A stretch of DNA of 34,230 bases from a virus: positions 1 through 34,230 of IMG/VR virus record IMGVR_UViG_3300010885_018032; one strand, 5' to 3'. A model generated the notes under the pieces. The model was not told where the DNA came from. It saw only the letters and a program-made list of their open reading frames with translations, and made no database searches. This document shows positions 3,656 to 33,202 of this stretch, piece by piece. Every line of letters starts with the position of its first letter. Position 1 is the first letter of the stretch. The position numbers and the translations under genes were made by a program.

Positions 3656-5221
3656 ATGCGTAACTTAATTGATTTAATAACATATAATTCTCTTATTACC
3701 GAAAGTCGTGGCTTAGGTGCAAGACAGTCTGGTGAAGAATTTGTAAGTACTACTGATCCTGAAGATAAAGTCTATGTAAAAAGTGTAGATTTTTATCCAG
3801 AGGATGCTGCTGCTTATGAAACTGAAGAAGAACGGAACATTGAACTGTCAAGAATAGTCCATTTAATTCCTAATGCTTATGTTGATTTAATAGGCAAGTT
3901 TAACAAAAAGCAATTGGCATTTGGTATAGCTATATTTGAGAGACCGGGTGACCCAACTAATATAGCATTTGTAAAGCCATTTGAGGCGATACATCCTGAT
4001 CCTAGTCAGAATAAATGGGACAATCAAAAAGGAATACCTGGATTTAATTACAATAGCAAGAGTGCTAAAAAAGCTAAGTCTAAAATGGCACCTCAGGATA
4101 TTTTGACTACGCAACAAAGCAATCTTAATCCTGATAGTATAGTTGTACAAATTGCAGCAAAATTTGGTGATGATAGTCCATTGACAGGATTTGCTCGTTC
4201 AATTGCAGATGGAGTAAAATTACCAATTTCGTTTGATGCACCTGAAGGTATGCATTTCACTGCATTCAGAGATTATTTTTGTGAATTGTTACATCCTATT
4301 GCATTACAAACTGGAAATTTCAAGGGTAATGCTGGCGAAGCAGCAATGAAATTTTTAGGAAGGGATAACTTCAGTAATACCACTATTAATTTCGGTAAAG
4401 ATAAAACCGAAGGGTTAAGTGATAGTATTCTTATTAGTCCTGAAGGTAAAAAAATCAAAGTAAGTAGTAAAGGTTCTAAAGGAGCAGATGCAAGCACTAT
4501 TAATTTACTTAATGCTATAAATGAGTTGGGTGACTCAGCACTAACAAAAAAACACATAAAAATCATTGACCTGATTAAAAAAGTTTCGGCAGCTGGACAA
4601 GCCAACGCTCCATTATTATTGGGAATAGAATATGGCATTATTAAAGAAGAAGATGCTAATACTATAGTTGGATTTAAAAAAATGGCACAAACTACTTTGC
4701 CAATCGCATTAGGAATGAATCTTAACCCAACTATTAAAAAGTTGATTACTAATAAAGTTACTAAAAAACCTAACAATCTTAATTTGTATTTTCATTGTAT
4801 TGCTGCAGTAGCGCATGAAGTCGCTGATTACATCAACAATAACACAAAATTTAGTGACGCGGCATCAGAAATACTAAACAACGGTGCATTAATACAGGTG
4901 TATACAAAAGCATCTCAATCAGGTGATAAATGGACAGTGAAATCATTTGATTCTATTTGGCCTGGTACCGCAGTTACTGGAGTAGAATTCACTGCAGGTA
5001 AAAATTATTATAGCACTGATATTAAAGGTAACTTTACTTTTAGCATCCTCTTCAATAATGCCACCTATGTAGAACCTGATCAAGAACCCAATGGCCCTAG
5101 TGTTATTTCTCCATCTGATGCTGAAGCGGCTGCTCCTAGAAAAGCACGAACTGAAATCACTCCAACTAAAGAACCAAAAAAACCACCACCTGAATCAATT
5201 ACAGGTAGATCACGCAGATAA
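3656..5221 (+). CDS. 521-residue phage protein, possibly nuclease-like
   Basis: I do not recognise a named family with certainty. The N-terminal 200 residues look globular; the middle contains GNAGEAAMKFLGRDNF (about 224-239), then TEGLSDSILI (251-260), then KKIKVSSKGSKGA (265-277). This order, a helix with Glu228, an Asp256 in a strand and a following strand with a Lys272 two residues after a Ser, is reminiscent of the PD-(D/E)xK nuclease fold, with Ser in place of the usual acidic residue. That is a weak structural guess. The C-terminal 40 residues are a Pro/Lys-rich tail. The start at 3656 follows TTTTTAATAAATATATA with no Shine-Dalgarno sequence. It is the last gene before a strong terminator. 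Confidence 0.7.
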   Translation: MRNLIDLITYNSLITESRGLGARQSGEEFVSTTDPEDKVYVKSVDFYPEDAAAYETEEERNIELSRIVHLIPNAYVDLIGKFNKKQLAFGIAIFERPGDPTNIAFVKPFEAIHPDPSQNKWDNQKGIPGFNYNSKSAKKAKSKMAPQDILTTQQSNLNPDSIVVQIAAKFGDDSPLTGFARSIADGVKLPISFDAPEGMHFTAFRDYFCELLHPIALQTGNFKGNAGEAAMKFLGRDNFSNTTINFGKDKTEGLSDSILISPEGKKIKVSSKGSKGADASTINLLNAINELGDSALTKKHIKIIDLIKKVSAAGQANAPLLLGIEYGIIKEEDANTIVGFKKMAQTTLPIALGMNLNPTIKKLITNKVTKKPNNLNLYFHCIAAVAHEVADYINNNTKFSDAASEILNNGALIQVYTKASQSGDKWTVKSFDSIWPGTAVTGVEFTAGKNYYSTDIKGNFTFSILFNNATYVEPDQEPNGPSVISPSDAEAAAPRKARTEITPTKEPKKPPPESITGRSRR

Positions 5222-5240
5222 CTAACTCTCTTTAATAACT

Positions 5241-5292
5241 AAGCCGTAACGGTGCGAATTCATTGAAATTCTGCACCGAACGGCTTATTTTT
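5241..5292 (+). terminator. Strong terminator with a long interrupted stem
   Basis: AAGCCGT (5241-5247) pairs with ACGGCTT (5280-5286), GGTGC (5251-5255) with GCACC (5273-5277) and GAATT (5256-5260) with AATTC (5267-5271). A T-rich tract follows at 5287-5292. It ends the uvsX-uvsY transcript and insulates the next gene. Confidence 0.85.
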
Positions 5293-5364
5293 ATGCCCTT
5301 TTTAATTGTCCTGGGTGAGTATTTTTGTTAGTATACACTTACCACTAACATAGGTTAAATTAGC

Positions 5365-6303
5365 ATGAAAAATTGGGTACTAGCATTGGGATTAACATTC
5401 GGCTCATTATGTGCAAATGCAGGTGATTTACGATCAGATCACGGACAGTCATACTACGCTACTGGACGAGGTGTCGGAGAACTACAGATGGAAATAAAAT
5501 CTACAACCACCACAATCAATGCATCTATTGTGTTAAGAGTGCAAGGTGGGACAGCTAATAACAATATCAATTATCATGGCGGCCCATTACTTAATAGTCC
5601 TAATGGAACTAATCTGTATTATATCTGGTACGGTGACTGGACAGGAAACACAGCACCATCAATTCTTACGGATCTTGCAAATGGACTCTCTGGATCGCCG
5701 TGGTATAATATCAACACTACATATGCGGACCGTACTGGTAAAAAGATTACAAATTCAGTGCATCTGTTGCAACAAACTTCAGATAATTATTCTCAAGGTA
5801 AGGTGTTGAGTGATGCGCAGATACAAAATGTTGTAGAATCTGCAATCACCACTGGGTATCTACCCAAAGATAGTAATGCAGTTTACTTTGTGTTGACTTC
5901 AGCCGACGTTAATGCAAGTTCAGGTTTCTGTACTAAGTATTGTGCGTGGCATACTAAAGCCAACATTGGTGGTACTACTATCAAATATTCATTCGTTGGA
6001 AATACTGACCGTTGTCCAAATGCATGTTCTCCACAGAATATTGGTCCTAACGGGAATGCAGGTGCTGATAGTATGGCTAATATGATAGCTCATGAATTGA
6101 CAGAGACAGTCACTGATCCTGAATTAAACGCTTGGTATGATACCCGTGGTCTGGAAAACGGTGATAAGTGTGCATGGACATTTGGAACCATGACCAAGTT
6201 GCCCTCAGGCGCAAAGTACAACATGACCCTAGGCAATCGCAAATTCTTGATTCAACAGAACTGGGTCAATGCAAATGGCGGTTATTGTGCATCTAGGTAC
6301 TAA
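5365..6303 (+). CDS. Secreted EXORDIUM/PHI-1-like protein
   Basis: Probably exported: the first 19 residues are a signal peptide (MKNWVLALGL..., cut after ANA), and the mature part has six cysteines (C189, C193, C217, C221, C269, C308), fitting disulfides outside the cytoplasm. The order of motifs matches the plant phosphate-induced protein 1/EXORDIUM family (PHI-1) as I know it: YHGGPLL (70-76), LYYIWYGDW (84-92), YSQGKVLSDAQI (142-153), VYFVLTSADV (173-182), FCTKYCAWH (188-196), SFVGNTDRCPNAC (209-221), PNGNAGADSM (228-237). The stretch HELTETVTDPELNAWYD (243-259) contains an HExxx(x)xxxxDP pattern that could bind metal. Biochemical function of the family is unclear. It has terminators before it and a separate promoter after it, so it is a single-gene insert. 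Plant homologs act in growth; here a role on host envelope or outside the cell is only inference. Confidence 0.75.
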   Translation: MKNWVLALGLTFGSLCANAGDLRSDHGQSYYATGRGVGELQMEIKSTTTTINASIVLRVQGGTANNNINYHGGPLLNSPNGTNLYYIWYGDWTGNTAPSILTDLANGLSGSPWYNINTTYADRTGKKITNSVHLLQQTSDNYSQGKVLSDAQIQNVVESAITTGYLPKDSNAVYFVLTSADVNASSGFCTKYCAWHTKANIGGTTIKYSFVGNTDRCPNACSPQNIGPNGNAGADSMANMIAHELTETVTDPELNAWYDTRGLENGDKCAWTFGTMTKLPSGAKYNMTLGNRKFLIQQNWVNANGGYCASRY

Positions 6304-6318
6304 TTTTGTTAAAAACAG

Positions 6319-6347
6319 TTGACACATCGGTCATCTTGTGTTAAAAT
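6319..6347 (+). promoter_or_regulatory. Sigma70-type promoter for the small membrane-protein genes
   Basis: TTGACA (6319-6324), 17 bp, TAAAAT (6342-6347). The start codon is 32 bases further on, the same distance as in the early-gene array at 11.7-14.8 kb, but the flanking sequence is different from those cassettes. Confidence 0.8.
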
Positions 6348-6378: not shown

Positions 6379-6561
6379 ATGAAAAATTCTCATTTTGTTA
6401 CTCCCCGTACTTTGGCAGATTGCCAATTTACTGTAGGTTATACCAATAGCTCAATTGCTGATTCTTCAATCAATCGGCTTAGCTCAATGCTATTCCCAGT
6501 AGCAGCTATTGTTATCTCTTTTCTTTTCCTGGTTATTGTTTGCGCTCTTTATCTAGCATAA
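6379..6561 (+). CDS. 60-residue single-pass membrane protein
   Basis: The N-terminal 35 residues are polar (TPRTLADCQFTVGYTNSS), the C-terminal 24 form one hydrophobic segment (LFPVAAIVISFLFLVIVCAL) with almost no residues after it, so the protein is probably anchored by its tail in the host inner membrane. Small phage proteins with a TPRTLxD(C/A)xF start followed by one membrane helix are known from other tailed phages, from memory, without a function. It is the first gene after a near-consensus promoter and is therefore likely expressed early. Confidence 0.75.
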   Translation: MKNSHFVTPRTLADCQFTVGYTNSSIADSSINRLSSMLFPVAAIVISFLFLVIVCALYLA

Positions 6562-6674
6562 TGAAATCTAGTATTATTAATACAAGATCACGCCCAGGAA
6601 AGGTATTGGTATTGATACCTATCGTTATTAGTATTATTGCTGTAGCAATAGTAGTGTTGAATTCTTTCTCTTAA
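6561..6674 (+). CDS. 37-residue membrane peptide
   Basis: A short frame whose ATG overlaps the stop codon of the preceding gene (TAATG), the signature of translational coupling. After a basic N-terminus (MKSSIINTRSRPGK) it is one Ile/Val-rich membrane helix (VLVLIPIVISIIAVAIVVL) and a five-residue end. The basic residues before the helix predict an inside-out orientation with the N-terminus in the cytoplasm. Its pairing with another single-pass protein suggests the two may form a small membrane complex, which is an inference. No family recognised. Confidence 0.6.
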   Translation: MKSSIINTRSRPGKVLVLIPIVISIIAVAIVVLNSFS

Positions 6675-23389: not shown

Positions 23390-23884
23390 ATGCAGGCCAT
23401 CCAAACATATTTATACAGTAATAAAATAGTGGTTCAGATTCTGGACACCACTATATTTAACGTAAGGAACAGACAAGTGTACAGCAGACCCATTAAAATT
23501 TATCAGGGTATAGATAATCCTATACAAGTGGTAATTAAAAATCAAGATCAAAAAGCCGTTAATTTTACTGGTTACCTCATGCAAGCTGGCATACAAGATC
23601 CCTTTAATAAAGTAACTTCATGCAGCTTTCCAGTAATTATGTCAAATATTTCACTGGGACAAGGGTCATTCGTCATAAGTGGTGTAATTGCTAATAGTTT
23701 AGAACAAAGATTTTATAAATTGACATTTAAAACAATACGAGTTAGTGATAATGAAGAATCACCAGTCTATATTGACGATAATTATGGTGTACCACTTGAT
23801 TTAGAAGTATTACCAGCATATTATGAAACTGCTACTATACCTCCAGTATTAATTGAAAATGTAATAGATGCAGGAACAATATGA
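23390..23884 (+). CDS. Small structural protein, baseplate/fibre-associated
   Basis: A 164-residue late protein, first gene after the late promoter. It is almost all beta: IFNVRNRQVYSRPIKIYQG, then DNPIQVVIKNQDQKAVNFTGY (outline 41-61), then strand pairs through LEVLPAYYETATIPP. The IKIYQGIDNPIQV... segment is of the type found in N-terminal domains of phage tail, baseplate and fibre proteins (the upper baseplate protein fold of the BppU kind). A role as a connector between baseplate and fibre is inferred. It overlaps the giant fibre gene by ATGA, so the two are likely made in matched amounts. Confidence 0.7.
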   Translation: MQAIQTYLYSNKIVVQILDTTIFNVRNRQVYSRPIKIYQGIDNPIQVVIKNQDQKAVNFTGYLMQAGIQDPFNKVTSCSFPVIMSNISLGQGSFVISGVIANSLEQRFYKLTFKTIRVSDNEESPVYIDDNYGVPLDLEVLPAYYETATIPPVLIENVIDAGTI

Positions 23885-26800
23885 CTATTTCAAACACCAA
23901 GAATATTTTATTAAAACGTGGAAATACTTCAGTAAGTAGTAATTATATTGGCCCATTGGGCGAAGTTACAATTGATACTGGTCTGAAGACTTTGCGAGTT
24001 CATGACGGTGCAACACCTGGTGGTACATTAATTAGTGGAGTTGGTAGTCGGGGCGCTACAGGGATACAAGGTAATGTTGGTCCTACCGGCATTCAAGGAA
24101 ATGTTGGTTCTACAGGTGCAACAGGCATTCAAGGAAATGTTGGTTCTACAGGTGCAACAGGCATTCAAGGAAATGTTGGTTCTACAGGTGCAACAGGCAT
24201 TCAAGGAAATGTTGGTTCTACTGGTGCTACTGGTATACAAGGAAACGTTGGTTCTACTGGTGCTACAGGCATTCAAGGTAATATCGGTCTTAGAGGGGCC
24301 ACTGGAGCCACTGGTATACAAGGTAATATAGGCATTACTGGTGCTACTGGTCTATTGGGGTCAACAGGAGCTACTGGTACGGCTGGTCATGTTGGATCAA
24401 CTGGATTTACTGGAAATGTTGGAGCTACTGGTCTTAAAGGTGATACTGGTGCAGTTGGTGCAACTGGTATACAAGGCAACGTTGGTATAACAGGGGCTAC
24501 TGGTATAGAAGGAAATGTTGGTCCTAGAGGATTCACTGGAAGTCAAGGGGTCAGTGTAACACTTCAAGGAACAAAACCAACTATTGCATCATTGTTATTA
24601 ATAACAGGCAACCCAGGTGACGGATGGATTGTAACTACTGGTGATGGTGGAACTCATTTAAATGGTAGCTTGTGGTTTTGGAATGTAAGTACCAGTTTAT
24701 GGAATGACATTGGACTTATTGTTGGTCCTCAGGGAGATGTAGGAAATGTTGGTCCTAGAGGCGTTACTGGAAACATTGGGGCTACTGGAGCTACCGGTAT
24801 ACAAGGTAATATAGGTATTACTGGTGCGCCTGGTGCTATTGGAAATACAGGAGCTGTCGGACGAGGTATAGCAACTGGTGGAGCAGAAGGGCAAGTATTA
24901 ACCAAACTAAGTAGTGATGATTACGATACTGGTTGGGTTAATGATGCTAAAGACAGATTGGTCACTGGTAATGTTAGCGTTATACTAGAATCATATGGTA
25001 ATTTAACTGTACCTGGACACATATTACCAATTTCTAGTCTAATGTATGATCTTGGATCACCTGATGCTCGTTTCCGTGATTTATGGTTATCTGGTAATTC
25101 CATCAACATAGGTAATAATACAATTAGTACCACTGCTTCTGGTATTACAATGGGTAATTTGCAAATTAATGGTGTTATAGACTTAAAACCATTAGATAAA
25201 ATTGATACTATTCTTCGTAGTACTACCAACTTAGTTTTCCAAGCTGGAGCTACTGGTATTTACCAATGGACCTTAGGTGCAGATGGTACGACTACCTTCC
25301 CTGATAACACTATTAAAAACAACAATAGCATTTATATAACACCTGGTACTCTATTGGTACCTAATGTTGATGTATATGCTGCTGATACTGGTGGTGCTGG
25401 TGGATCATGGCGGTTGTTCATTGATGATATGGTATATCCTAACATTGGTAATGATGTTTCAATAGGTTCTACTATAACTGTGTCATGGGGTACACAAGTA
25501 ACTGCTAATATCTTATACATTGAACATGATGTAGAGTACGCCAAATGGATATTCACTGTTAATCAAGATGTATATACTGGATTCCCTGGATTTACCCATG
25601 GTACTGCCACATTTGGAGTCGGGCAACCTACCTGGACCTTTGACACAGATGGTACTCTGGTATTGCCAGGTGGACAACTAATTGGAGGTAGTGATAGTAC
25701 TAACGGTATTACTATGACTACAGCACGGGGTACAGTACTGTTTGGTAATCAACCTGAAGTTCAGATAACTTCGGCGCATCACTTCCACATCATGGCGGCA
25801 GATTCTGCTGCTACTGATCTATTCTTTGGTAGTGATGCAAACTTTGTTAAATTACCACGTGGAACTGAGGATGTAGTAATTGGTAACGGTAATAATTATA
25901 ACTGGCAATTTGGCAACTATGGTAACTTGACATTGCCACAGGGTGGAACTATTACTGAAATAGCAAGGGTTACTGAAGGCGGTGATTCACCTGGAACCAT
26001 AGTACTGACACCAAATAATGTTTTCAATCCGTGGAATAATTTAACCATATACAACACAGCATTCAATCCAGAGTCACAACACATACACCTTGCTTCGGGC
26101 GACTTGAATCGTACTGAAATAGTACTTGGTAATGACAACAAGTTTGTCAAAGTGAATATTGATGGGTCTGTGTGTGTTAAAAGCAGTGCTTACTATTTTG
26201 AAGGGGCAATGGCATTTGAGTTCCAAAATACTGACAACACTATTACAGAGATGCATTTTAGCTTTGGTGTGTATCCCCGACTATACTATGTGGCGGTCGG
26301 TGATATCATAACTGATGTCAGCAACGGTAATACAGCAACTATAACTGGCGTTATCCATGATAGTAATGTATCTATAACCTGTAGCATCCCAATGGATACT
26401 GCTGGTACAAGCCCACTAGGTTATAGTTTTTCTAAACCCGAAGCAATGGGTGGTGTTTGGCAGTTTGGCGCGGATGGTGTTTTAACATTACCTAATGGTT
26501 CTACTATAGGTTCCAATGACGCAGATTTCGGTATCCCAATAACCACAGCCCGTGGCAGTATATTCCTAGGCAACCAAGCAGACTGCCTCAATGTAAATCA
26601 TTTCCACATAATGAAATCGGGTCAGCAGGATGTTGATTTATTCTTAGGTGATGACAATAACTATGTGAAACTGCCAAGTGACGGTGGAGTTGAAATTTCC
26701 TCGTCAGAGATTGGTAGCCAACATTATTGGCGTTTTGGCACTGATGGTGTATTAAGAATGCCAGATGGCAATCTTGGCGGTGATGGTCGTATAGATTTCA

Positions 26801-28458
26801 ACTTTGAAGGCTACAACTGGGGACGCATTAGTTCTCACAACAGACATGTTTTCATACACAGCTTGGACGACCGCGGCCCTGGCGATCCACACAATGGCAA
26901 TATACTTACAGAACTCAGTGTTGGCATTGATGTTGTTATCAGCACCAATGTGGACGGGACTGGACAATCTGCTCACAGTTGGCAATTTGGTTATGAAGGT
27001 GGTTTAAGATTCCCCGATGCCACTACACAATATACAGCATGGCAAGGTGCTGTTATGTTCAGTGCAACCGCGCCCACCCCTACAGCTAATTTAGGACGCT
27101 TGTGGTACAATCCTGAAGACGGACGTACCTATGTTATGTACAATGATCAGTGGGTTGATTCTAATCCACCAGTAGTTCCTCATGCCAGTACCTATTTAGA
27201 TGGTCTAGTAGTAGAGGGCACTAGTATCACCACAGTCTCATATGACTCTACGGATATTAAGATACATGATTTAACATTTACTGCTGACGGTCGTATTCAA
27301 CTACCAGTAGGTGGGGACATCATTGATAGTCTAGGAAATAGTGTATTAGCAAATATCAATATTACAGATAGATTAGTCAACGGAAATTACAGTATATTGT
27401 TAGGAGCAGATGGTACGTTAACATTACCTTCAGAAGGTATTATTAGCAGTCCTAACGGTATCAGCATGATTACTAATCGCGGCAGGGTCAACTTTGGAGT
27501 TGATATTGAAAGACCTGGATTAGCTAGTCACTTTCATATTAATGCCGCTGATACAAATGCTACAGATTTATTCTTTGGTGATGATGGTAATTATGTTAAA
27601 TTGCCTAGCACAGGTAACGGTCTTGGTGTAGAGATTGGTGCAGGTGCTTCTGAGATTTGGCGTTTCAGTCCATCTGGTAGTTTAACACTTCCATATGGCG
27701 GTAGAATACTATCACAGGCTAGCGATTACATTGCAATGATCAGTGATCTAGGTGCTGATGTAGGATGGGCTAATCCTGTCATTTTTGCCAACATTGATGG
27801 TGGTGGTGATTACAGTGAGATACAGGCCGGCGACACGGTTGAAGCAATAGTAGGTGCTGATTCTGCTGGTGTATTCCTTAGTGTTGTTGTAGCTAACACA
27901 GACGGTGCTGCGTCCGCGCGAGCAAGCACTTGGAGTGTTGATCGTGAGGGCAATTTTGTCAATGACTCGTTTAACCTTAGTGGTCAAGGAAATCTAGACT
28001 TGCCACCAGGAGATATTGTTGATCGCAATGGCAACAGTTTAATTCGTGCCGCAGTTAGCACAACAGCACCAGGGGCTTGGGCCAAAGAAGGACATCAGTG
28101 GTACAACCTGGTAGACGGTCGCACTTATATTAAATTTAACAATACCTGGATTGATGCTAATCCTCCAATAGTAGCACCTGTCAGCACTTATCTAAGTGGT
28201 TTAACCATAGATGAACAGACTATAAGTTCAGCAGATTACCTACAATCTGATATAAAATTTGCAGGAAATATAATACCAGATGAAGATTTGACTTACAATC
28301 TAGGTAGTATCACTAATCAATGGAATAGTTTGTATGTTAAATCTAGTACAATTTACATGAGTGGTCGTGCAGTTAGTTTAACAGATGAAGGACTAAAGGT
28401 AGACGGACAAAGTCCAATTACTGTGATAGATGGTGGATTCGCTGACAGTTGGGCGTAA
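23881..28458 (+). CDS. Giant tail fibre with collagen-like repeats
   Basis: 1525 residues. The N-terminus (LLKRGNTSVSSNYIGPLGEV, then RVHDGATPGGT) is the virion-attachment domain known from phage fibres and hyaluronidase-type proteins. It is followed by collagen-like Gly-x-x repeats at about 56-224 and 281-328, split by a beta-rich spacer with TLQGTKPTIASLLLI. The remainder is a repeated beta-rich shaft: three copies of a module with HFHI, then DLF(F/L)G(S/D)D(A/N/G)N(F/Y)VKLP, then W(Q/R)F, near 25680-25930, 26500-26790 and 27430-27710; two copies of a module with W(Y)NxxDGRTY and NPP near 27080-27200 and 28060-28190; and twice LG(S)...W..LY/W near the two ends. The start overlaps the preceding gene and has AGGAACA before it. 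Trimeric fibre for receptor binding, late expression. Confidence 0.85.
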   Translation: MTISNTKNILLKRGNTSVSSNYIGPLGEVTIDTGLKTLRVHDGATPGGTLISGVGSRGATGIQGNVGPTGIQGNVGSTGATGIQGNVGSTGATGIQGNVGSTGATGIQGNVGSTGATGIQGNVGSTGATGIQGNIGLRGATGATGIQGNIGITGATGLLGSTGATGTAGHVGSTGFTGNVGATGLKGDTGAVGATGIQGNVGITGATGIEGNVGPRGFTGSQGVSVTLQGTKPTIASLLLITGNPGDGWIVTTGDGGTHLNGSLWFWNVSTSLWNDIGLIVGPQGDVGNVGPRGVTGNIGATGATGIQGNIGITGAPGAIGNTGAVGRGIATGGAEGQVLTKLSSDDYDTGWVNDAKDRLVTGNVSVILESYGNLTVPGHILPISSLMYDLGSPDARFRDLWLSGNSINIGNNTISTTASGITMGNLQINGVIDLKPLDKIDTILRSTTNLVFQAGATGIYQWTLGADGTTTFPDNTIKNNNSIYITPGTLLVPNVDVYAADTGGAGGSWRLFIDDMVYPNIGNDVSIGSTITVSWGTQVTANILYIEHDVEYAKWIFTVNQDVYTGFPGFTHGTATFGVGQPTWTFDTDGTLVLPGGQLIGGSDSTNGITMTTARGTVLFGNQPEVQITSAHHFHIMAADSAATDLFFGSDANFVKLPRGTEDVVIGNGNNYNWQFGNYGNLTLPQGGTITEIARVTEGGDSPGTIVLTPNNVFNPWNNLTIYNTAFNPESQHIHLASGDLNRTEIVLGNDNKFVKVNIDGSVCVKSSAYYFEGAMAFEFQNTDNTITEMHFSFGVYPRLYYVAVGDIITDVSNGNTATITGVIHDSNVSITCSIPMDTAGTSPLGYSFSKPEAMGGVWQFGADGVLTLPNGSTIGSNDADFGIPITTARGSIFLGNQADCLNVNHFHIMKSGQQDVDLFLGDDNNYVKLPSDGGVEISSSEIGSQHYWRFGTDGVLRMPDGNLGGDGRIDFNFEGYNWGRISSHNRHVFIHSLDDRGPGDPHNGNILTELSVGIDVVISTNVDGTGQSAHSWQFGYEGGLRFPDATTQYTAWQGAVMFSATAPTPTANLGRLWYNPEDGRTYVMYNDQWVDSNPPVVPHASTYLDGLVVEGTSITTVSYDSTDIKIHDLTFTADGRIQLPVGGDIIDSLGNSVLANINITDRLVNGNYSILLGADGTLTLPSEGIISSPNGISMITNRGRVNFGVDIERPGLASHFHINAADTNATDLFFGDDGNYVKLPSTGNGLGVEIGAGASEIWRFSPSGSLTLPYGGRILSQASDYIAMISDLGADVGWANPVIFANIDGGGDYSEIQAGDTVEAIVGADSAGVFLSVVVANTDGAASARASTWSVDREGNFVNDSFNLSGQGNLDLPPGDIVDRNGNSLIRAAVSTTAPGAWAKEGHQWYNLVDGRTYIKFNNTWIDANPPIVAPVSTYLSGLTIDEQTISSADYLQSDIKFAGNIIPDEDLTYNLGSITNQWNSLYVKSSTIYMSGRAVSLTDEGLKVDGQSPITVIDGGFADSWA
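24049..24552 (+). repeat. Collagen-like Gly-x-x repeat region 1
   Basis: Codes for a continuous run of Gly-Xaa-Xaa triplets such as GATGIQGNVGST. Gln-Gly-Asn and Ala-Thr-Gly units dominate, unlike animal collagen, where proline is abundant. Such regions form a stiff trimeric rod in phage fibres and are prone to length change by recombination. Confidence 0.9.
24088..24267 (+). repeat. Tandem 36-bp repeat array within the collagen region
   Basis: Starting at 24088 the 36-base unit beginning GGCATTCAAGGAAATG is repeated in three identical copies (24088-24195), followed by two copies changed by synonymous third-base substitutions (24196-24231 and 24232-24267). Each unit codes for 12 residues (GIQGNVGSTGAT). 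The identical copies suggest recent expansion by slippage or unequal recombination. Confidence 0.93.
24724..24870 (+). repeat. Collagen-like Gly-x-x repeat region 2
   Basis: A second shorter run, GPQGDVGNVGPRGVTGNIG and onward to GRG, after a beta-rich spacer. Its unit GATGIQGNIGIT is the same family as in region 1, so the two probably derive from one another. Confidence 0.85.
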
Positions 28459-28483
28459 ATACATTAACTTAATAAATAACATC

Positions 28484-28702
28484 ATGAGCATAACATTTCC
28501 CACTGCCCCTAAATTAGGGGACGACTTTTTGGCAACCAACGGTTCAACATACATATGGATGGGTAATCGTTGGAGTGGTGCGCAAGCTATCCTTACTGGA
28601 CAAGCTCAACCCTTTTTTGATGGTGGAGATTCTTCCCCATACAATTCATCTATAGACAACACCCTTGAAGGTGGTGTAACAAATATTATTGGAGCAAACT
28701 AA
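28484..28702 (+). CDS. 72-residue structural protein
   Basis: ATG 28484 is preferred over an upstream in-frame start at 28430 that lies within the fibre gene. The preceding AATAAATA (28471-28478) is one base off the T4 late element. The product starts SITFPTAPKLGDDFLATNGSTYIWMGNRW, a phage structural pattern (P-x-x-GD-x-x-x-x-NG-x-x-Y-x-W-x-G-x-x-W) that I recall from fibre and tip-attachment modules, and ends with a Gly/Asp-rich segment. It ends directly at the next ATG (28703). It probably caps or joins the fibre, inferred from its place between the two fibre genes. Confidence 0.7.
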   Translation: MSITFPTAPKLGDDFLATNGSTYIWMGNRWSGAQAILTGQAQPFFDGGDSSPYNSSIDNTLEGGVTNIIGAN

Positions 28703-31700
28703 ATGGCAACCAGAATTAAATTAAGACGAGACACATCAGCAAATTGGTTAGAATCTAATCCGATCCTGGCACAAGGTGAAACAGGGTTTGAAACAGATTC
28801 CCGTGCAATGAAGCTGGGTGACGGCACAACTCGTTGGAAAGACCTAAAATATGCGGTGACAGGTAATCTTAAAGTCACTGACAACACCATCCACGGTGAT
28901 GAAGTTGTTAGTATTAGTTCAGGGATGGGAGACCGCTCTAATTGGGTTATGACTACCAATGCCACTGATAGTCTACAACCAACTTCAGCATGGACAACTT
29001 CAGTGGCCTATGACAGCATGGGCAACACATTTAGTAGTATTGTGTATGGTGGACCAGGCCTAGGCGGCCCTAGCGGCACTTCAGGAATGGCTCTAACTAA
29101 AACTGATCCTAACGGCCAAGTTATGTTTAGCAACTACTACTACGAATACTATGCTTTTGGTTGGAGCATGATTGTAGACAACAACGATGATGTTATTTTT
29201 GTCATGGCAGAGTTTGATGCACCTTCAACTGATACCGTATTAGTTAAAGTTTCCGGCGTAGACGGCACGTTTATGTGGCAAAAATATCTAGCAGACACTG
29301 ACGCTGCCAGTGATGATGTCGCTTTATGTGTTGACGTTGATCCACAGAACAACGTGATCATTGCAGGAACAACAACCACTAGTGGTCCAGGTGGGTATGA
29401 TTTCTGGGTCGGTAAATTTCATGGTGATACAGGTATGCCTGTTTGGCAACGACAATATGACAGCGATGGTTGCGATGACGCAGCCAGTGGCATTGCCGTT
29501 GATAGCATGGGAAATATCGGTGTTGCAGGATCTAGCTATGGACCAGGCCAATTTATAGCAGTGTTTAAACTTGACGGCAGCAACGGTGATGTTATTTGGC
29601 AAAAACGAGTGATCAATGCTGAACTACAGTCTGAAGAGTGGAACGTTGGTAATGCATGGGTCGACGGTGACTTATACAGCAGTGATATCTGCGTGGATAG
29701 CAATGATGACTTTTACTTTAACCTAACTGGCGTTTATTGTACAGATTGGACAATAGCTGCCATTCACAAGATCAGTAGCACAGGTGATTGGAAGTGGGCC
29801 AAGGTCATTAGCTATTCTTTCTACTTACAAGGATCAAGCTCACTGATCTGTGATTCAAGCAACAATGTTTATTTGACCAGCACATTATTTAACTATCGTC
29901 AAGTTAACCAACAATCCAATGATAATGTTACATTTGCTACAGTAATAACCAAGTTTAATGCGTCAGGTAGAAAAATCTGGGGCAAATCATTGATTCGCGA
30001 ACAGTCTGAGGTGTATGCTGGCGGTGGTGCGGGTTATGATGGTGAGTTAATTGGTGTCGGACAAACAGTGGCAGTTAACGATGACTACATTCTAGTAGGT
30101 GGTGGATACTTTGAAACCACTGATTACACACTAGGTAACCAAAACTGGTATAATATGCCGTTCTTGGCCCAGTTAGACAAATCAGGTACAGATTTTGTCA
30201 AAGATGGTTGGGTATATAAAGATGACAAATTTAAAATCTTTAACATGTCTGTGGCAACAGATGACGATCATTATCTTAATGACCTAAGTAATAACGTAGC
30301 TGATATTGTGGTCACAACAGGTGATGTATACTTTGAAGAAAATACCGATACTCATGAACTAGCTTACATCAATATGTCACGGGTTAAAACCATGACCCTA
30401 GATGGCCCTAGCCTACACCTACCAGAGAATGGTGGTCTAGCATTGAGTCGTAAACATAAAGGACACATTACCAGCATTGGTAAATTTGACCTAGACGGTA
30501 ATGAAGGTAATAGCACAGAGGGAGATACCTATATCAACGGTATCACCAGCGACGCAGATGGCAACATCTATGCAGCAGGTGGTTGGTATACATACGACAA
30601 TTGGAATGACGGTGACAGTGGCGTACAAATACCACTCGTTTGGAAAATAGACAGCGAAGGTGCTATTGTATGGACTGCGGGCAATAATCTTGACCAATGG
30701 GGCGCAGATATGGTTTCTGTGGCCCACCACACTGCTAATAACACTATCATAGCATTAGGCATGGACCACGAAGATAGTCTAAATAATTACGATGGGGCAG
30801 AAGGCTTTAATCTCTTTACTTTAGATGCTGGTAGTGGTACACTAAAATCAGTGCTACATGTCCAACCTAGTGTTGCTCAACCTTCAGGAAGCATCAACAG
30901 TGGTGCAGATATGAGTCCATTGGCTCTGGCTCTAAAGAGTGATGGATCACCTGTGGTAGTTGGTTATATCAATAACAACTATGATAAGTTTGCGAATGTA
31001 ACTGCCAATATTGGAGGATTACCTGGTAGTAGCACAGGCGTATTGGTAATTAATAAAGCAGTGTTTGATCGTGCAGGGAATAATACAGATATTGAATATC
31101 CAGCCGGCAATGGCGATTGGTACATTAATAACGCTGCTATTCAGTATGTTAACAAATACGCCAACGTAGCACCAACTGTTACCAGTACAGTAGGGTCTGG
31201 TGCTAAGTTTGAGATTGTTATAACATCTGGTTGGTCTATTGAAGCAACAATGACACCTAGCTTTGCTGGCACTAGCTACAAAGTGGGTAACTATATTAAA
31301 GTATTAGGAACATTGATTAGCGGTTCTGATGTACTCAATGATTTGACAATTAAAGTACTAACCGTTGATATCAATGGTGGTATTTTAACTGCGGTGGCTG
31401 ATACTTGGGATCCTACTGGGTATAGTGAATGGGGCACATACAATGCAATAGCTGGTGAGACACTAGTGGGTGCTTCTTCTAGATTTAACGTTATTGCCAA
31501 TCCAACAACTCGGGAATATACCTTATCTAGAACTAACGGTGGTATAAATTATTCAATTGGTGACACTCTAAAAGTTCTTGGTAGCCTATTAGGCGGCGTT
31601 GACAGCGTTAATGATATTATTATCACTGTCACCGGGGTAATAGGCCAAGGTGTCATTGATACAATAACTTCAACTGGTCTAGGTCAGGCTGTAACCATTA

Positions 31701-33202
31701 AACTAGATGTAAGCACTGGTACTGACTTTACACAGGCTGGCACATATAATATATGGCACTACACAGACGGTGATGGATTTATCTGGACACCAGCCTGGCA
31801 TGTGTCGGTAGGAGGCGAAGGTGGCTACGACAGTATTGATTCAGTGGCTATTGACATGGACGATAACATCGTTGTTGGCGGGCGTAGTGAAAACTTAAAT
31901 CTAGGAAGCGAGACTACTAATTGGGGCGGGTATGCCCAAACAGCGTTCATTGCCAAGTACAACTCAGCAGGTGTGCGTCAATGGGCCAAGTCGGTTGACG
32001 GGCATGAAGGCGACAGCACAGTATGGGGTGTAGCCACTGACACAGACAAGAATGTCTACGGTGTTATGACCACTAACTTCTATGCATCTGGTCAAGATCC
32101 GCACGTGATCAAGTTAGACAGCAATGGCAATTTTGTATGGATGACGCAACTCAACTACTACAACTACTACTTTGACACAATTAGTATTGCTATGGATGAT
32201 GATGAAAATATTATCGTCTCAATAAGTTATGAATCAAATGATACTGACTCTGATCGGGTAGGCTATAACAACAATATACAGATAGCTAAATTTGATAAAG
32301 ATGGTAATCACCTATTCCAACGTTTGCTATGGAGCAACAATGGTATGTATACCGGCTATAATGACTGGTATGGTAATAATCTAACAGTTGCAGGAGACAA
32401 GTTCGTATGGGGCGGATATGCTAACTCCTGGAATGATGATGACGCTGACATTGCTGTAGTTGCTCAACTACCATTAGATGGAACAGGCATTGGCAACATT
32501 GGTAACTATTACTATGACGAAGTTGAGGTTTATGTAGAACGCTGGACAGAAAACGACACATTTGGTGGCGGCATATTAATTGTACGTGATGTTGCTGATC
32601 GTCTACCAAGCCGAGAGCATTTATTAATAGCAGCACCATATGGCACTGGACAAAACACAGGGGACCCAACAGGTAGTGGATACTTTGGCGGCACTTCAGG
32701 TCCAATGACTATCTATGCTGACCTTGAAGGCAAGATAGCTGATATCCTTGAAGAGGGCGGTGCTGATATTACTGGCGTTAAAGAAATCGTGTTTGAAGAC
32801 GGTACTCGTCAAAGTACCACTGCTCAGGACATTCCACAAGTTGACATAAGCATAACCAACAGAGGTGATGATGACTACTGGCTAAGGTTAGAAGATCGTG
32901 GACATCACATTTATATGGAAGAGTATGCAGGTGTAGACATTGTTATTCCTCCATACAGCGCAGTGCCATTCCCAGTGGGAACTAGCATTATAATTGTCAC
33001 TGGCAATACCACCAATATTGACATATACAGTTGGAATGATGATGACTTAATGCATGCCGCTGGACTAAATAGTTCATCATATAGTTGGAATATGCCAAAG
33101 TGGTCAATGGCTACCTTGTTGAAAATTAAACAAGGCTATAACAATGATGGATCACCTAACAACGATTGCGAATGGATGATTGCTGGTCCTGGGTTAAATT
33201 AA
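28703..33202 (+). CDS. Giant beta-propeller tail fibre
   Basis: 1499 residues. The N-terminus (RIKLRRDTSANWLESNPILA, then ETGFETDSRAMKLGDGTTRW) is the attachment domain common to phage fibres. Blocks at about 90-460, 590-790 and 1030-1230 consist of repeated strands of the type D..NNVIIAGTT...YDFWVGKF...GDTGMPVWQRQY, where a Gly-rich turn and a Trp-Q/K-x end each blade: a beta-propeller of the SBBP or PQQ-like kind. Between them, about 840-1020, is a duplicated domain with Gly-Ala-x-Phe...Y-x-GD/GN...K-VLG-LxxGxDxxND(L/I)xIxV, which I recall from fibres of marine T4-like phages. The C-terminus contains GVKEIVFEDGTRQSTTAQD and a compact beta tail. Receptor binding is likely. Confidence 0.8.
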   Translation: MATRIKLRRDTSANWLESNPILAQGETGFETDSRAMKLGDGTTRWKDLKYAVTGNLKVTDNTIHGDEVVSISSGMGDRSNWVMTTNATDSLQPTSAWTTSVAYDSMGNTFSSIVYGGPGLGGPSGTSGMALTKTDPNGQVMFSNYYYEYYAFGWSMIVDNNDDVIFVMAEFDAPSTDTVLVKVSGVDGTFMWQKYLADTDAASDDVALCVDVDPQNNVIIAGTTTTSGPGGYDFWVGKFHGDTGMPVWQRQYDSDGCDDAASGIAVDSMGNIGVAGSSYGPGQFIAVFKLDGSNGDVIWQKRVINAELQSEEWNVGNAWVDGDLYSSDICVDSNDDFYFNLTGVYCTDWTIAAIHKISSTGDWKWAKVISYSFYLQGSSSLICDSSNNVYLTSTLFNYRQVNQQSNDNVTFATVITKFNASGRKIWGKSLIREQSEVYAGGGAGYDGELIGVGQTVAVNDDYILVGGGYFETTDYTLGNQNWYNMPFLAQLDKSGTDFVKDGWVYKDDKFKIFNMSVATDDDHYLNDLSNNVADIVVTTGDVYFEENTDTHELAYINMSRVKTMTLDGPSLHLPENGGLALSRKHKGHITSIGKFDLDGNEGNSTEGDTYINGITSDADGNIYAAGGWYTYDNWNDGDSGVQIPLVWKIDSEGAIVWTAGNNLDQWGADMVSVAHHTANNTIIALGMDHEDSLNNYDGAEGFNLFTLDAGSGTLKSVLHVQPSVAQPSGSINSGADMSPLALALKSDGSPVVVGYINNNYDKFANVTANIGGLPGSSTGVLVINKAVFDRAGNNTDIEYPAGNGDWYINNAAIQYVNKYANVAPTVTSTVGSGAKFEIVITSGWSIEATMTPSFAGTSYKVGNYIKVLGTLISGSDVLNDLTIKVLTVDINGGILTAVADTWDPTGYSEWGTYNAIAGETLVGASSRFNVIANPTTREYTLSRTNGGINYSIGDTLKVLGSLLGGVDSVNDIIITVTGVIGQGVIDTITSTGLGQAVTIKLDVSTGTDFTQAGTYNIWHYTDGDGFIWTPAWHVSVGGEGGYDSIDSVAIDMDDNIVVGGRSENLNLGSETTNWGGYAQTAFIAKYNSAGVRQWAKSVDGHEGDSTVWGVATDTDKNVYGVMTTNFYASGQDPHVIKLDSNGNFVWMTQLNYYNYYFDTISIAMDDDENIIVSISYESNDTDSDRVGYNNNIQIAKFDKDGNHLFQRLLWSNNGMYTGYNDWYGNNLTVAGDKFVWGGYANSWNDDDADIAVVAQLPLDGTGIGNIGNYYYDEVEVYVERWTENDTFGGGILIVRDVADRLPSREHLLIAAPYGTGQNTGDPTGSGYFGGTSGPMTIYADLEGKIADILEEGGADITGVKEIVFEDGTRQSTTAQDIPQVDISITNRGDDDYWLRLEDRGHHIYMEEYAGVDIVIPPYSAVPFPVGTSIIIVTGNTTNIDIYSWNDDDLMHAAGLNSSSYSWNMPKWSMATLLKIKQGYNNDGSPNNDCEWMIAGPGLN

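Follow-up and report, generated by a model that had tools for sequence, protein, structure and literature searches.

The Phi_1 locus and its phage setting

The stretch of DNA analysed here (the window) is a 34,230-base IMG/VR record that encodes a single-strand-binding protein, UvsX, UvsY, a DNA helicase and a DNA-polymerase-like protein. Its UvsX is closest to those of jumbo phages of 310-490 kb, among them Vibrio phage 2.275.O, Sinorhizobium phage Phosso and Atu_ph07, which makes it probable that the window is a piece of a jumbo-like genome of this kind. Two adjacent, very large tail-fibre-like proteins of 1525 and 1499 aa are encoded at 23881-33202; both have an Mtd-type N-terminus, and one has collagen repeats.

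The gene under study, which encodes a member of the Phi_1 family (Table 1), is flanked on one side by the UvsX/UvsY block and on the other by a glycan block (epimerase, methyltransferase and glycosyltransferase). The gene is intact, with phage genes on either side, in four contigs, and the order of UvsX/UvsY, Phi_1 and glycan block is the same in contigs L003 and L004 and, to the end of the locus, in L002. This four-contig synteny rejects the idea that host DNA had contaminated the contig, and it bears out the sequence-only reading, which had taken the gene to be phage-encoded. In L002, UvsX itself looks split by a fractured intein (L002:2838-5319): one ORF holds the N-terminal part of UvsX and the start of the intein, a separate ORF encodes a 334-aa endonuclease-like protein, and the end of the intein (VENAHHYILENGVVSHN) is joined to the C-terminal part of UvsX. 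This intein is absent from the window, L003 and L004.

Table 1. Features at the Phi_1 locus, in window coordinates
Feature	Position	Strand	Basis or remark
Intrinsic terminator between the UvsX/UvsY/521-aa gene block and the Phi_1 gene	5240..5292	+	hairpin followed by T-run
Leader CTAACATAGGTTAAATTAGCATGAAAAA, 28 nt, common to the Phi_1 gene and the next gene	5345..5372	+	repeat search
Phi_1 / EXORDIUM-like secreted protein gene	5365..6303	+	312 aa, ATG start; Pfam PF04674
Signal peptide, residues 1-19, putative ANA/G cleavage	5365..5421	+	sequence, hydropathy; N-terminus has low pLDDT
Phi_1 domain, residues 68-301; metzincin-like fold predicted	5566..6267	+	Pfam and structure searches
Predicted active-site helix, residues 232-250, H243-E244-x-x-E247, with D251 directly after	6058..6114	+	helix in both models
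E264-N-G-D267-K-C269 segment, candidate further ligands and disulfide	6154..6171	+	conservation
Sigma-70-type promoter TTGACA-17-TAAAAT of the next gene	6319..6347	+	11/12 match
60-aa single-span membrane protein, same leader, possible partner	6379..6561	+	hydropathy 2.99 over 19 residues
37-aa single-span membrane protein, possible partner	6561..6674	+	hydropathy 3.41; intact in L003 and L004

The upstream terminator is strong (-25 kcal/mol, z -6.7, with none of 200 shuffles as stable) and is identical across the four contigs. The leader occurs in exactly two copies in the window, at 5345 and 6359, where the chance expectation is 0.00 with 3 mismatches allowed, and that of the Phi_1 gene is conserved in L002-L004. 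An AGG about 10 nt upstream of the Phi_1 ATG may serve as a ribosome-binding site. No promoter was called for the Phi_1 gene itself, and no terminator was found between it and the promoter at 6319, the -35 element of which is retained in L002-L004; the 60-aa membrane protein is 96-97% identical in these same three contigs. The earlier description of a single-gene insert between terminators is thus only half right: the terminator upstream stands, none was found downstream, and the term single-gene is loose for a gene that has its leader in common with the next one.

Family assignment, export signal and cysteines

Pfam Phi_1 (PF04674) is the sole family match of the 312-residue protein (E 2.7e-35). 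The score of 122.5 bits against a gathering score of 25, over profile positions 1-267 of 276, rules out chance, and the domain spans nearly the whole mature part. The sequence-only reading had placed a secreted EXORDIUM/PHI-1-like protein at this gene, and its coordinates and every motif that it quoted are present in the translation. That reading had also named two outcomes that would count against it, the lack of a Phi_1 match or a better match to a metallopeptidase; neither occurred. Among 68 homologues, 55 matched Phi_1 and none matched a metallopeptidase family in Pfam at E up to 1, which rejects a plain metallopeptidase in place of Phi_1. A weak Pfam match of four alignment members to microbial transglutaminase (PF09017; best E 0.0038), which may be due to chance, was set aside because that fold is missing from the results of both fold searches. 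The window protein had no match in NCBIfam, PADLOC or PHROG, and a sequence search for solved structures returned no relative.

At its N-terminus, MKNWVLALGLTFGSLCANAG, the protein carries a signal peptide of the Sec type, in which A17-N-A19 forms the AxA site and the best 11-residue hydropathy is 1.97. Judged from sequence and hydropathy, the signal peptide is MKNWVLALGLTFGSLCANA, with G following the cleavage site, and export is predicted, as had been proposed. The mature protein contains six cysteines, in agreement with the earlier count, at positions 189, 193, 217, 221, 269 and 308. Across 83 aligned homologues, C193, C221, C269 and C308 are invariant, while C189 and C217 covary perfectly, with both present in 44, neither in 39 and a single one never. 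The four invariant cysteines and the all-or-none behaviour of this pair together support three disulfides.

Bacterial origin and distribution among phages

Searching 84,980 species genomes of bacteria and archaea yielded 288 Phi_1 relatives at bacterial loci, 80 of which were kept. They occur in Pseudomonadota, Acidobacteriota, Verrucomicrobiota, Armatimonadota, Gemmatimonadota, Actinomycetota, Chloroflexota and other phyla, with a patchy distribution that is illustrated by the order of Sapientia, where 8 of 200 genomes carry the family. One bacterial member had already been recognised in 2009 (PMC2661892). The nearest bacterial relatives are 53-58% identical to the window protein over its whole length, and the closest full-length ones, L007 and L073 (57-58%), come from proteobacterial MAGs. 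That the family is widespread in bacteria, though patchy, indicates a bacterial source for the phage copy: judged by its sequence relatives, the window gene is an acquisition from bacteria and not from plants. The earlier suggestion that the gene was acquired is upheld. Its framing in terms of the plant family holds for family membership, but the functions known from plants should not be carried over to a copy of bacterial descent.

The family is also present on other IMG/VR contigs: L088, L091/L092, L175, L176 and L005/L006. Some of these are viral by IMG/VR classification only, while L088, L091 and L175 have phage-type genes near Phi_1. L088, L091, L175 and L176 form one clade (support 100/97), and phages therefore appear to be long-time carriers of that branch. 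A single origin of all phage copies was rejected (p 0.012 and 0.005), and at least two acquisitions by phages are consequently likely; a clade uniting the window group with the L088 group was not rejected (p 0.30). L005 was matched by tblastn and has no Pfam Phi_1 match, and its placement in the tree depends on a long branch. By eye, L088 and L005 have signal peptides, and L091, L175 and L176 have lipoprotein-like signals.

No match to the window protein was found in 50,697 phage records, none was found among phage isolates with four different Phi_1 queries, and our literature search found no report of a phage Phi_1 protein or of the family serving as auxiliary genes. What appears to be new is a phage carrier for a known family, with phages of several kinds predicted to export its members.

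Several genes on these contigs are observations in their own right. At L091:7638-9262 (and also in L092), the Phi_1 gene stops before the HExxE helix, and an HNH endonuclease gene on the opposite strand overlaps its end; the missing C-terminal part was not found in the DNA examined there. Also near Phi_1 genes lie those for a protein of 606 aa in which a RoxA-like cytochrome-c domain is present (L091:3500-5320) and for a signal-peptide-bearing alkaline-phosphatase-superfamily protein (L088:1504-2493). Beside the Phi_1-like gene of L005 is that for a 592-aa protein (L005:5574-7352) matching the phage RNA-binding family phrog_850, which presumably resembles Ro60/TROVE proteins.

Cassette exchange and purifying selection

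The Phi_1 gene shows a dN/dS of 0.10-0.13 over dS values of up to 0.56, and the protein is therefore under purifying selection. Between the window and L003, dS is 0.56 for this gene, as compared with 0.017 for the 521-aa gene, 0.017 for UvsX and 0.044 for the 60-aa gene. Up to and including the terminator, the two sequences match exactly; divergence sets in just past the T-run (at about 5298) and gives way to identity again at about 6241, near the 3' end of the gene; within the diverged stretch, the leader and the signal peptide are largely retained. The Phi_1 gene thus looks like a swapped allele of an exchangeable cassette. Unusually fast protein evolution was rejected, since the extra divergence from L003 is mainly synonymous.

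In addition to being present in four contigs, the gene is absent at the corresponding boundary of a relative, L104, whose UvsX is 77% identical and whose related glycosyltransferase is 76% identical; there, the equivalent 495-aa gene is followed by the glycan block after 220 bp. The 80 close UvsX loci likewise yielded no Phi_1 gene; many of them stop short of this boundary. The gene upstream of the terminator (3656-5221), the 521-aa product of which has no family or phage-isolate match, differs between the window and L002 by a dS of 0.51, and it too seems to have been exchanged.

Conserved site and predicted fold

The predicted active-site helix and the D251 directly after it are conserved among the 83 homologues (H243 in 81, E244 in 83, E247 in 80 and D251 in 81), as are E264 (82), D267 (82) and C269 (83) in the downstream segment and H196 (at least 80). 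The window protein therefore carries the same cysteines and the same HExxE..D and E-N-G-D-K-C motifs as the bacterial members.

AlphaFold2 modelled the full protein with a pLDDT of 87 and the core with a pLDDT of 97.4 and a pTM of 0.94, and in structure searches both models give a metzincin picture. Among the best 50 realigned PDB entries for the core, nearly all are metzincins, with Z up to 9.0, a value that slightly exceeds the 7-8 usual for models without a clear match. VIA-align placed ADAM22 first (Z 9.0, rmsd 3.6, 156 aligned), and also aligned a venom metalloproteinase (Z 8.9) and the archaemetzincin 2x7m (Z 8.5, rmsd 3.8, 146 aligned). ADAM22 is a pseudo-protease that is not known to be catalytically active. 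In Foldseek, the best matches, ADAMTS-4 and ADAM10, are weak (E 0.003-0.004, TM-scores 0.3-0.4); nothing fell below E 0.001 for the Phi_1 models, nor did anything in the viral structure library. The conserved HE nevertheless sits in a long helix where metzincins carry theirs, and a metzincin-like fold, resting on these models, is a probable new assignment for a known family.

However, the site reads HExxExx[TS]D, in place of the metzincin zinc motif HExxHxxGxxH/D. The position of the second zinc histidine is glutamate in 80 of the 83 homologues, that of the glycine at +7 is mostly threonine or serine, and no methionine column after residue 251 exceeds 24 of 83. With this motif and no conserved Met-turn methionine, the protein is not filed as a canonical metzincin; it may work like one. 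The metal site earlier suggested at H243 and E244 gains from the predicted fold and the conservation of the HE pair, and loses from the replacement of the second zinc histidine.

Proposed mechanism and alternatives

The reading that we favour, tentatively and at rather less than even probability, is that of a host-derived, Sec-exported metzincin-like metal enzyme with a variant site, which would help the phage by cleaving a polymer in the envelope of the host or around the cell. The computations show family membership, the signal peptide, the pairing of the cysteines, residue conservation, purifying selection, the phage setting, the exchange of the cassette and the likeness of fold, while metal binding, catalysis, the site of action and the benefit are what we infer, as follows. 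The gene, derived from a bacterium, would be carried by a jumbo-like phage as an accessory cassette that follows a terminator and has a leader of its own. The infected cell would make the protein with its Sec signal peptide and export it, whereupon it would be cleaved after ANA and oxidised to three disulfides. The mature domain would adopt a metzincin-like fold and hold a metal ion through H243, E247 and/or D251, and perhaps H196, E264 or D267, with E244 as the general base. The substrate may be a protein or another polymer, and the payoff could be release, spread or the exclusion of rivals. The export signals of the other phage copies (several of them lipoprotein-like), the membrane mini-proteins and the adjoining glycan genes fit a role at the envelope.

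The strongest rival, which we judge rather unlikely, is a non-catalytic scaffold, the acidic site of which would hold a structural ion while the protein, once exported, attaches to glycans or proteins of the envelope and may, for instance, block receptors against competing phages. The loss of the second zinc histidine across the family and the pseudo-protease as best structural match speak for such a binder, as does the position of the gene beside two membrane mini-protein genes and the glycan block; yet the near-complete retention of H243 and the invariance of E244 are most easily explained by a catalytic or metal role. A nutrient-related auxiliary function, in which the exported protein aids the infected cell under phosphate or carbon limitation, as has been suggested for plant EXO, is distinctly less probable. 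The family name, the carbon-response phenotypes in plants (PMC3691544) and the alkaline-phosphatase-superfamily gene about 2 kb from Phi_1 in L088 point toward it, but "phosphate-induced" is a label for expression in plants that implies no mechanism, no comparable case turned up for bacteria, and next to the Phi_1 gene of the window no gene for the uptake of phosphate or sugar was found.

That the protein acts instead on a eukaryote near the bacterium, such as a plant or an alga, is very improbable. Plant members do act extracellularly on cell expansion (PMC2661892), but the closest relatives come from bacteria, members are spread over many phyla and the window holds no hint of a eukaryotic partner. 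Least probable of all is a passenger, be it a recently captured host gene without a phage function or a host fragment misjoined to a phage contig. The lack of matches in the phage records and among the close UvsX loci would suit a passenger, whereas purifying selection, the intact gene amid phage genes in four contigs and the retention of the family by a second phage clade at high divergence argue against it.

The preferred reading, that of an exported metal enzyme, may be extended to the family as a whole. Phi_1/EXORDIUM in general could represent a new, divergent metzincin-fold metalloenzyme branch with an HExxE..D site, members of which phages recruited at least twice as exported, host-surface-acting proteins; we regard this as possible but doubtful. 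In the plant papers (PMC2661892, PMC3691544), what EXORDIUM/PHI-1 proteins do biochemically is given as unknown, and no Phi_1 protein is known to have an activity. A disulfide-rich member borne by a phage, with its fold predicted confidently, leads to a specific hypothesis, a metzincin-like metal enzyme with E244 as its base; this is testable with a single preparation of protein, and the answer would also matter for the plant family. Phages of several kinds are, moreover, found to carry Phi_1 proteins with predicted export.

Comparison with known systems

The plant EXORDIUM, EXORDIUM-LIKE and PHI-1 proteins (PF04674), likened to the window protein via the profile, share its Pfam domain, signal peptide, extracellular destination and length of about 300 residues; the window member differs in being phage-encoded, with bacteria as the source of its nearest relatives. 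The bacterial proteins (among them L007 and L073 from proteobacterial MAGs, L008, L010 and L011) share full-length identity of 53-58% and the conserved residues, but lie on bacterial contigs without phage neighbours. The Phi_1-like proteins of the other phage-like contigs (L088, L091/L092, L175, L176 and L005/L006) also have export signals, although those of L091, L175 and L176 are lipoprotein-like, and L005 has an added Ig-like domain and lacks a Pfam Phi_1 match. Metzincins such as ADAM/reprolysin and archaemetzincin resemble the window protein in its predicted fold and its predicted active-site helix with HE, whereas Phi_1 has HExxE and not HExxH, no glycine at +7, no conserved Met-turn methionine and no Pfam sequence similarity. 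A working analogue of the putative exported phage enzyme may be the Mtz-Tim pair of Listeria monocytogenes, in which a metzincin-type protein of phage origin is secreted, works outside the cytoplasm and, with its partner, raises the sensitivity to phage lysis and virion release (PMC8235301). Unlike the window protein, the pair is described as a metzincin with a lipoprotein partner and belongs to a Gram-positive host, and the likeness is one of how the two might work.
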